Source: Lentisphaeria bacterium (GTDB lineage Bacteria > Verrucomicrobiota > Lentisphaeria > Victivallales > Victivallaceae). From it: a DNA stretch of 33,117 nt. The stretch covers positions 1-33,117 of the forward strand of contig JAFVQX010000066.1 in NCBI GenBank assembly GCA_017504585.1, given 5' to 3'. Below are positions 1 through 18,421 of the stretch, one piece after another (positions within the stretch are counted from its first letter, which is position 1; the number at the start of each line of letters is the position of its first letter). A program made the translations under genes and the position numbers. The notes beneath the pieces are model-generated. The model was given only the letters and a program-made list of their open reading frames with translations. It was not told the origin of the DNA and searched no databases.

Positions 1-19
1 CAGAAAATTTACTGCTCAT
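1..19 (-). CDS. 5' end of an unidentified gene (partial)
   Basis: On the minus strand an ATG at 19-17 follows a good Shine-Dalgarno sequence (GAGGTAAA, 30-23). It opens a frame reading M-S-S-K-F-S before the window ends. It lies about 40 bases beyond the stop of the 313-residue gene on the same strand, so it is probably the next gene of the cstA transcript. Nothing can be said about its function. The call rests only on the RBS plus start codon and the position. Confidence 0.45.
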
Positions 20-57
20 AGTTTACCTCATTATTTTTCTTGAATCTTGATCGACCT

Positions 58-999
58 TTACTTCCGTCTGGCTCGCGGCGGGCGGGTGAACCGCACTTTG
101 TTGTTGCTTTTGAGCTTGACCCCGTTGGCAAAAAGTACGCAGTTAAGTGCCGCATGACCGATGTTCTGCACCAAATGCAAGCGGCTTTCGCTGCTGCACT
201 CCTGCAAAGCGGGGTTGACCACCACTTTAACGCTTTTATCGGGCATTATATACCACAGCCCCCAGCCGTCGGGGATCTCTTTTTCGGAGAGCATATTTTC
301 GGGTACTGCCATGACCAGATAGTCTGCCACGTAGGCACGGGCAAGCTGTTCCATACGCGTACCCTTATACAAACTCTGCTGCAAAGAGTTTATCCGGCGG
401 CAGAGTTTGTGATACTCTTTGTTGGTACTGCGGCTGTAATCAAAGGTGCGGAACTCATCAAAAAGTTCTTCTTCCACCCACAGATCCGGTTCTTCAACGC
501 GGATAGACTGCTCCATAACAGTCCGCTTTTCCCGCAGCTCCGACAACTCTTCCAGCATTGCCCCCCGCCCGGCACTTTCGGGCAGACACTGTTTGCGATC
601 AGTATAAACATCCACCACCAGAGTCCGCTCCAGGTGATTGATCCTTTTGCGGTAGCAGGAGTAATACGCCGCCACATCGGCCTGAAACTTCCGCAACCGG
701 CAAGGCACTTGCAATGCCGCTCCTGCCGCTCCGCTCTGGGCAAGATATGCCAAAGCAGCTTGCAGCAAAGCAAAGCGGTCAAGTTTGCGATTGTCTTCAA
801 CGGCAGGAGTTTCCGGAAGCGTTTCCACCACAGGCTCCGGAACAGCATCCGGAGTTGCCGCATTTTCAGCTGAAAGCTCCACCGGTTCAGCCGCTTCAAG
901 CAAATCAGAAAGATTTGCTTCAACCGTTTCGTTGACCGGAGCGGCAGCTACCGGAGCATCGAAGTCAAAAAAGAGTTGTTTGTCGGAAGATTTTTTCAT
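58..999 (-). CDS. Unrecognised 313-residue protein with acidic N-terminal linker
   Basis: I do not recognise the family. Residues 1-70 are Ala/Glu/Pro-rich and acidic and look disordered. From about residue 85 the protein becomes basic and helical (CRLRKFQADVAAYYSCYRKR), with a charged stretch likely to form a coiled coil around 145-200. The last third contains YVADYLVMAVPENM, then PDGWGLWYIMPDKSVKVVV. This is faintly like the closing strands of small PD-(D/E)XK nuclease-type proteins, where a 'PdgwGL..v' strand precedes a basic C-terminus, but no catalytic D...ExK set is evident. The tail is very basic (RFTRPPRARRK), consistent with nucleic-acid binding. There is no signal peptide or membrane segment. 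It starts 10 bases after the stop of the cstA-like gene with no obvious SD, so translation may depend on coupling. Coding potential is supported by uninterrupted length and composition; the function is unknown. Confidence 0.75.
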   Translation of the reverse strand: MKKSSDKQLFFDFDAPVAAAPVNETVEANLSDLLEAAEPVELSAENAATPDAVPEPVVETLPETPAVEDNRKLDRFALLQAALAYLAQSGAAGAALQVPCRLRKFQADVAAYYSCYRKRINHLERTLVVDVYTDRKQCLPESAGRGAMLEELSELREKRTVMEQSIRVEEPDLWVEEELFDEFRTFDYSRSTNKEYHKLCRRINSLQQSLYKGTRMEQLARAYVADYLVMAVPENMLSEKEIPDGWGLWYIMPDKSVKVVVNPALQECSSESRLHLVQNIGHAALNCVLFANGVKLKSNNKVRFTRPPRARRK

Positions 1000-17766: not shown

Positions 17767-17795
17767 TTGCAATAGATTTTAATTTATGTTATATT
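17767..17795 (+). promoter_or_regulatory. Promoter of the structured RNA / repeat-protein unit
   Basis: TTGCAA (17767-17772), 17 bases, TATATT (17790-17795), with a predicted start near 17802. No gene begins for another 260 bases, so the transcript opens with a long non-coding segment. Confidence 0.68.
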
Positions 17796-17801
17796 ACCAG
17801 G

Positions 17802-18047
17802 TATGGACTGCAAAATCAAGAAACAAGAAGAGGTTTGCTGAAATCAAAAAATCAAACTTATACATTTAACCGATAAAACGTCTACCACCATGAACTCGCA
17901 CTTCAGAAAACAGGCGTTAAGCAAAAGAACTTTTATTGGGTCAGAGTGTCCATGCAAAAGCATGTGGCACATTCTGATTGGGTGTTCTTTTGCATACGCT
18001 GTGCGAGGCGTTGGTGGTAGGCACTATTCGGGATGTGCCTTTTTTTT
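17802..18047 (+). ncRNA. Candidate structured RNA with rod-like fold and intrinsic terminator
   Basis: The region lacks a credible ORF but has strong nested complementarity. Outer stem: CTACCACCA (17882-17890) with TGGTGGTAG (18012-18020). Second stem: CTCGCAC (17895-17901) with GTGCGAG (18001-18007). Then a short GCGT/ACGC helix (17914-17917 with 17996-17999). Then a perfect 10-bp helix GCAAAAGAAC/GTTCTTTTGC (17921-17930 with 17984-17993). The apical hairpin is 17941-17977, with about 15 pairs around an AAAA loop. All lie on one axis, giving an irregular rod of about 140 nt. A terminator (AGGCAC/GTGCCT, 18019-18040, then eight Us) follows immediately and shares two bases with the outer stem. 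It has its own promoter at 17767. The shape recalls 6S RNA, but no sequence signature confirms that. It could also be a 5' attenuator for the gene at 18065. The first ~80 nt are A-rich and look unpaired. Confidence 0.6.
18019..18047 (+). terminator. Intrinsic terminator after the structured RNA
   Basis: Stem AGGCAC (18019-18024) and GTGCCT (18035-18040) with a 10-base loop, followed directly by an eight-T run (18040-18047). It sits 18 bases before the ATG at 18065, so read-through would be required to express that gene from the upstream promoter. Confidence 0.78.
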
Positions 18048-18064: not shown

Positions 18065-18421
18065 ATGAATGAGCTTTTGCCGGAAGAATTTGCCGCCTTG
18101 AATGATTGCCGCCATGCCCGTAATGAGTATTTGCACAGATGGTTGAAAGCGCTTTGCGAATTTCCCAAACTGTGGATCTTCTGCGATGTGTACGGGGATT
18201 TCAGTTCGGGCGCGTGGGCGGTGCTGCTTTCGCATCGCCCGGAGTTTGTGAGCCATGCTCCGTTGAGTGCTTTTTCTGCCGGCGAGTGGCGGCATGTACT
18301 GATTTATCAACCACAGTTGATAAGTTACTGCAATAAGTGGTCAGATTTTTCTGCTGCGCAAAAAGCCGCGCTCTTGAAACTCCAGCCGGAACTTACCCGA
18401 TACATAAAAAAAGCGCCCTGA
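18065..18421 (+). CDS. Small protein with degenerate ~24-residue repeats
   Basis: 118 residues starting at 18065 with a distant AGGA (11 bases up). After a 40-residue N-terminal segment, three repeats of 24-25 residues can be aligned on Phe46, Phe70 and Phe95. The pattern is FS...W..LL..rPEf, then FS.geW..vLiyQPQl, then FSaaqkaaLLklQPEl. From memory, longer proteins with repeats of the type 'W..fsg.dW..LL..QPqfadkC' are abundant in some gut bacteria, and this is a short, decayed version; I know no function for them. Cys, Trp and aromatic residues are frequent. There is no signal peptide or TM helix. It converges with the phosphoesterase gene, the two sharing a hairpin at 18411-18435. An in-frame extension upstream to 17978 would run through the terminator and is unlikely. 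Confidence 0.62.
   Translation: MNELLPEEFAALNDCRHARNEYLHRWLKALCEFPKLWIFCDVYGDFSSGAWAVLLSHRPEFVSHAPLSAFSAGEWRHVLIYQPQLISYCNKWSDFSAAQKAALLKLQPELTRYIKKAP

Follow-up and report, generated by a model that had tools for sequence, protein, structure and literature searches.

A multicopy leader RNA of Lentisphaeria with two conserved, mutually exclusive folds and a probable role in transcription attenuation

We analyzed a stretch of 33,117 nucleotides from a Lentisphaeria bacterium (GenBank assembly GCA_017504585.1, contig JAFVQX010000066.1; hereafter the window), in which a first-pass annotation had pointed to a rod-shaped structured RNA. Besides the rod, the RNA has a second conserved fold, and the two exclude each other. 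The element, a member of an apparently new RNA family, probably acts in cis as a transcription attenuator that uses three mutually exclusive pairings, with the rod as the read-through state and a long hairpin formed by helix H7 as the stop state.

The annotation was right in describing an unreported structured RNA that has a promoter and a terminator of its own: positions 17880-18047 fold far beyond chance, both signals are present (Table 1), and a search of the window against Rfam 15 matched no family. The folding energy of 17880-18046 was -74.9 kcal/mol compared with -44.2 ± 3.9 kcal/mol for 200 dinucleotide shuffles (z -7.9), none of which was as good, and 17802-18047 gave a z of -7.2. The proposed consensus promoter was confirmed, and all of the nested helices were recovered, namely a closing stem (P1, here 11 bp), a 7-bp stem (P2), a 10-bp stem (P4), and an apical hairpin (P5). 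The stretch contains no independent ORF, as the frame opened by a TTG at 17978 simply continues in frame into the gene at 18065. While the terminator with its eight Us is indeed present, it shares three bases with the closing stem (GGC, 18020-18022) and not two, and its 3' arm has its best-conserved partner at 17966-17977 within the rod rather than in the local 5' arm.

Table 1. Features of the element and its gene in the window
Feature	Positions	Strand	Remarks
Promoter TTGCAA-17-TATATT	17767..17795	+	Expected transcript start near 17802; position conserved in other copies
Shine-Dalgarno-like motif AGAAGAGGTT	17826..17835	+	5' leader; without start codon
P0, 5' strand, AACGTC	17877..17882	+	Pairs with 17913-17918
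P1, 5' strand	17880..17890	+	Closing stem of the rod, 11 bp with 18012-18022; P1 98.7% paired; 6/6 counted pairs change on both sides
P2, 5' strand, CTCGCAC	17895..17901	+	7-bp stem with 18001-18007; P2 98.5% paired; 7/7 pairs change on both sides
P0, 3' strand, GGCGTT	17913..17918	+	Pairs with 17877-17882
P4, 5' strand	17921..17930	+	10-bp stem with 17984-17993
P5	17938..17979	+	Apical hairpin of the rod
H7, 5' strand, GGCACATTCTGA	17966..17977	+	Equals the 3' side of P5; pairs with 18028-18039
P4, 3' strand	17984..17993	+	10-bp stem with 17921-17930
P6 hairpin, ACGC-[UGUGCGAG]-GCGT	17996..18011	+	P2 3' strand in its loop
P2, 3' strand, GTGCGAG	18001..18007	+	Doubles as P6 loop
P1, 3' strand	18012..18022	+	Last bases are the local terminator 5' arm
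Local terminator	18020..18047	+	Hairpin 18020-18039 and U8 18040-18047
H7, 3' strand, TCGGGATGTGCC	18028..18039	+	Terminator 3' arm; pairs with 17966-17977
Downstream gene	18065..18421	+	118 aa; QPxF-type repeat protein; no Pfam match

By DNA search, three copies of the element were found in the window's own genome and more in relatives, some of them in tandem. From an alignment of 17 copies we built a covariance model, R1, which gave about 110 hits and placed copies in 38 of 78 genomes of the window's family; a second model, R2, was then run on 137 genomes of the order, 59 of which carry copies, up to 13 in one genome. In a phylum-level sample of 388 genomes, R2 was positive in 43, and four of these lie outside the order. 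Copies representing all subfamilies had no match in Rfam 15, and open-licence papers on structured RNAs in these groups yielded no description of the family. The sole Rfam hit at gathering level among the neighbours was a group II intron (RF02001) adjoining one copy, where it begins directly past the U-run (L026, positions 1-156, minus strand); group IIC introns insert behind terminators. Beside a subfamily C copy lies a strong inverted repeat with weak matches to microRNA models on both strands (L075, positions 86-191).

In the rod, the 5' half of the RNA is paired with the 3' half through P1, P2, P4, and P5. Across 103 distinct copies, P1, P2, and P5 were 95.2% paired, 24 of 25 pairs changed on both sides (591 such cells in total), and the covariation score was 0.648 compared with at most 0.122 for slid partners. 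Thus, the paired columns strongly passed the test of compensatory change in related genomes that the annotation had proposed. The ratios of G.U to A.C were 10:1 in P1, 36:8 in P4, 113:18 in P5, and 28:5 in P6. Unlike the other helices, P2 covaries with almost no G.U (2 of 716 cells), possibly because P2 forms within the P6 loop as well. The idea that P1 and P2 addresses diversify within genomes was rejected: the p values were 0.009 and 0.26, respectively, and the comparison is confounded by orthology.

In the alternative fold, each half is closed on itself. The 5' half forms P0, which joins the strand just 5' of P1 to the strand after P2 and has bases in common with P4, and the 3' half forms a long hairpin composed of H7 and P6, the latter having the general form ACGC-[U P2b]-GCGU with the P2 3' strand set in its loop. 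P0 and P6 replaced P3, an extra rod helix assumed between P0b and P6a, which was rejected with only 73% pairing and frequent A.C. H7 and P6 were 93.6% paired, with a covariation of 0.352 compared with at most 0.126 for slid partners. By permutation, the specificity of each strand for its own partner reached z values of 11 (P0), 12 (P6), and 12 (H7), and of 6.1, 5.4, and 8.6, respectively, on 21 held-out copies, where shared ancestry is not removed by permutation and shuffle tests and is partly removed by the slid control and the distant copies. All of these helices were found again in the 21 copies, none of which had been used to define them. G.U far exceeded A.C in H7 (145 versus 11) but not in the local terminator stem (22 versus 27), which argues that selection acts on the plus-strand RNA and more strongly on H7 than on the local stem. 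H7 is also the better conserved of the two; in L135 and L136, which lie outside the training set, at least 11 pairs of H7 are kept while the local stem is not evident. The 3' half of the window copy folds into an H7 of 12 pairs around P6 (-36.1 kcal/mol), which ends at U8.

The two folds cannot coexist. P0 and P4 are mutually exclusive, H7 is incompatible with both P5 and the local terminator, and P1 is incompatible with the local terminator, whose 5' arm is part of the P1 3' strand. The element thus has the hallmark of a transcription attenuator, in that terminator helices and antiterminator helices exclude each other and both are conserved. In partition functions calculated without pseudoknots, the pairing probabilities for the full RNA of the window were 1.00 for P1, 0.01 for the local stem, and 0.00 for H7, while H7 reached 1.00 in the 3' half alone; in subfamilies A-C, the corresponding values were 0.96-0.99 for P1 and 0.00 for H7 in the whole RNA, and 0.96-1.00 for H7 in the 3' half alone. 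The rod is ahead by 10-25 kcal/mol at equilibrium in most copies, with a median advantage over forced H7 of 19 kcal/mol in group A and 14 kcal/mol in group B. Because the rod is the thermodynamic ground state, a switch would have to be kinetic or factor-driven, and a factor, pausing, or the folding path would have to favor P0 to reach the OFF state. The roughly 50-75 nt enclosed by H7 exceed what is usual for an intrinsic terminator. The local hairpin of group A copies is fairly good as well (mean pairing of 0.51 within the full RNA), and the read-through state may therefore be leaky.

The layout around the element is that of a gene leader, with a structured RNA between promoter and ORF and a terminator before the start codon. 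A promoter match of at least 9 of 12 positions occurs at this distance in 53% of 93 copies compared with 14% of shuffles, and the end of the -10 element lies a median of 99 nt upstream of P2. The Shine-Dalgarno-like motif is found in 84% of copies compared with 27% of shuffles, and a start codon follows 2-14 nt past it in just 7 of 93 copies. The motif lies about 50 nt upstream of P0 and could be an mRNA-stabilizing ribosome site; it resembles the STAB-SD known from cryIIIA, which we take only as a lead. Pairing of the motif with the U-run or the P2 flank was inconsistent among copies when judged by eye.

Genes start a median of 37 nt past the U-run (18 nt in the window), and an ORF of at least 60 aa with a Shine-Dalgarno sequence and ATG lies within 60 nt in 53 of 104 copies, compared with 1 of 97 antisense controls. 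The products among 82 downstream proteins include EcoRI-type methylases (10), SNases (8), zinc ribbons, Sel1 and ankyrin proteins, UDP-glucose dehydrogenase, and M48 peptidase; they belong to many unrelated families, with no common pathway that would point to a ligand. The window gene is itself one of a multicopy family of QPxF/W-repeat proteins of about 110-130 aa (L022, L024, L025, L058, L063), often with one RNA copy per gene. Since the RNA is multicopy and mostly lies just ahead of a gene in the same orientation, it is most plausibly a leader and not a stand-alone RNA.

Members of the family were also detected in IMG/VR contigs by a gapped pattern search. Two of these contigs (L160 and L162) are genuine phages, as judged from a tail tape-measure gene nearby. 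In the phage contigs, the RNA and its gene are oriented opposite to the neighboring tail gene, as in a phage 'moron'. Most phage contigs carry TATCTTTGC upstream of the RNA, which we take to be a Bacteroidota -7 element. A further viral contig, L176, was missed by R2, spotted by eye, and then tested helix by helix. Of 1000 shuffles, 0-16 matched the H7 of L159-L162 and L176, and in isolation the 3' half of these copies folds into one hairpin (-32 to -41 kcal/mol) at the U-run. A 16-mer scan of viral contigs gave chance matches only, two looser scans gave mostly chance matches, and the accessory protein of L160 had no relative in phage or plasmid collections.

We propose the following mechanism, which builds on features observed directly, namely the helices, their covariation and mutual exclusion, the U-run, and the proximity and orientation of the gene. 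The leader RNA would be transcribed from its own promoter and could adopt three pairings: 1:2, in which P0 closes the 5' half on itself; 2:3, the rod (P4, P5, P2, and P1), which would hold both possible partners of the terminator 3' arm, with P5 taking up the H7 5' strand and P1 the local 5' arm; and 3:4, H7, which with P6 would make one long hairpin ending at the U-run. Once the rod has formed, RNA polymerase would read into the gene; if P0 or a bound factor ties up the 5' half, the 3' half would collapse to the H7 hairpin and transcription would stop. A factor or ligand would presumably act on the 5' half, and H7 or the local stem is the predicted terminator in vivo. We infer this sign of the switch from the fact that the rod occupies both partners of the 3' arm and H7 always abuts the U-run. 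Given the lack of a leader peptide, the switch would not be translation-driven in the classical way. An assignment of H7 as an antiterminator opposing the local stem was abandoned, since some copies keep H7 without the local stem, the local stem does not tolerate wobble pairs, and both partners are already occupied by the rod.

Other readings of the element have to be weighed against attenuation. The annotation had suggested a stand-alone small RNA, 6S-like in shape, and an RNA of this type (6S-like or antisense-acting) would end at its own terminator while the neighboring gene is expressed separately. The own promoter and terminator, the very stable rod, and tandem copies with truncated or no genes (G003:C80 and G001:C9) agree with this. 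However, the 6S model RF00013 did not match the window at E ≤ 5 and matched 0 of 21 related genomes, while 5 of 14 control genomes were positive. The median of 37 nt between U-run and gene start leaves little room for another promoter, the ORFs are co-oriented, and the many copies within a genome have diverged helices. We therefore regard a stand-alone RNA as unlikely; the annotation's second thought, an attenuator for the downstream protein, was the better one, as the RNA is multicopy and tied to co-oriented genes.

It is less likely still that the conserved unit is a DNA-level hairpin for gene-cassette recombination, similar to an integron attC site, with the genes as cassettes. In favor of such a hairpin are the single element at each gene, the tandem arrangement, the unrelated nature of the accessory genes, and the covariation of P1 and P2 almost without G.U, and integron integrases do occur in the order. 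However, no integron integrase exceeded the cut-off in the copy-rich, incomplete genomes G000-G004, G019, and G021; G040 and G041 have the integrase and no listed copies; and the R-box pair RYYYAAC/GTTRRRY was found outside the stem in 0 of 97 copies. Moreover, promoter and U-run are conserved and H7 shows wobble pairs on one strand only. Most improbable is a type III toxin-antitoxin system, in which an RNA antitoxin binds the protein encoded after the terminator: its order of promoter, pseudoknot-prone RNA, terminator, and gene is alike, but the downstream proteins belong to many unrelated families and not to one nuclease fold, the RNA has no internal tandem repeats, and exclusion between H7 and the rod would not be expected. 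No ToxN/AbiQ-type family was among those listed by Pfam or PADLOC for the 82 downstream proteins.

We can tentatively imagine, as something possible rather than probable, a portable, gene-independent switch that travels with accessory genes across phyla and gates them through the choice between rod and terminator in answer to one shared trans-acting signal. Its carriers would be Lentisphaeria chromosomes, other genomes of the phylum, and phages with a Bacteroidota-like promoter at their copies. Since the RNA precedes genes as varied as restriction-modification-type methylases, nucleases, surface and repeat proteins, and phage accessory genes, the signal that it reads could be a general control of accessory genes in poorly studied gut bacteria and some phages. 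The family appears to be undescribed, and its covariation for two competing folds is unusually strong, which makes a switching mechanism directly testable in vitro.

Among known RNAs, a structured motif described from Lentisphaerae, Acido-Lenti-1 (RF01687; PMC2864571), differs from the present element in that it is 46 nt long, is absent from G000-G004, and shows no overlap with the element. The genomes with its above-cutoff hits (G018, G040, G041, G045, and G048; L155-L158) coincide with those that have a true integron integrase or, in G048, part of one, and a hit often has a partner on the opposite strand about 80 nt away; Acido-Lenti-1 may therefore not be an RNA but an integron attC site. 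The element resembles 6S RNA as a long irregular rod of about 170 nt with a 5'-side bubble, but it is a gene leader present in up to 13 copies per genome and has an alternative terminator fold. With the trp attenuator it shares the order of three helices that exclude one another, the last of which ends in a U-run before the gene; however, no leader ORF or control codons were found in the present leader, which is much larger, pseudoknot-capable, and not bound to one pathway. As in riboswitches with a terminator platform, a structured 5' leader folds so as to decide whether the terminator arm is free, whereas here no Rfam 15 family matches and the genes share no metabolite. Taken together, attenuators as a kind are known, while what appears to be new is the family, its size, its link to accessory genes of unrelated function, and its presence in phages.
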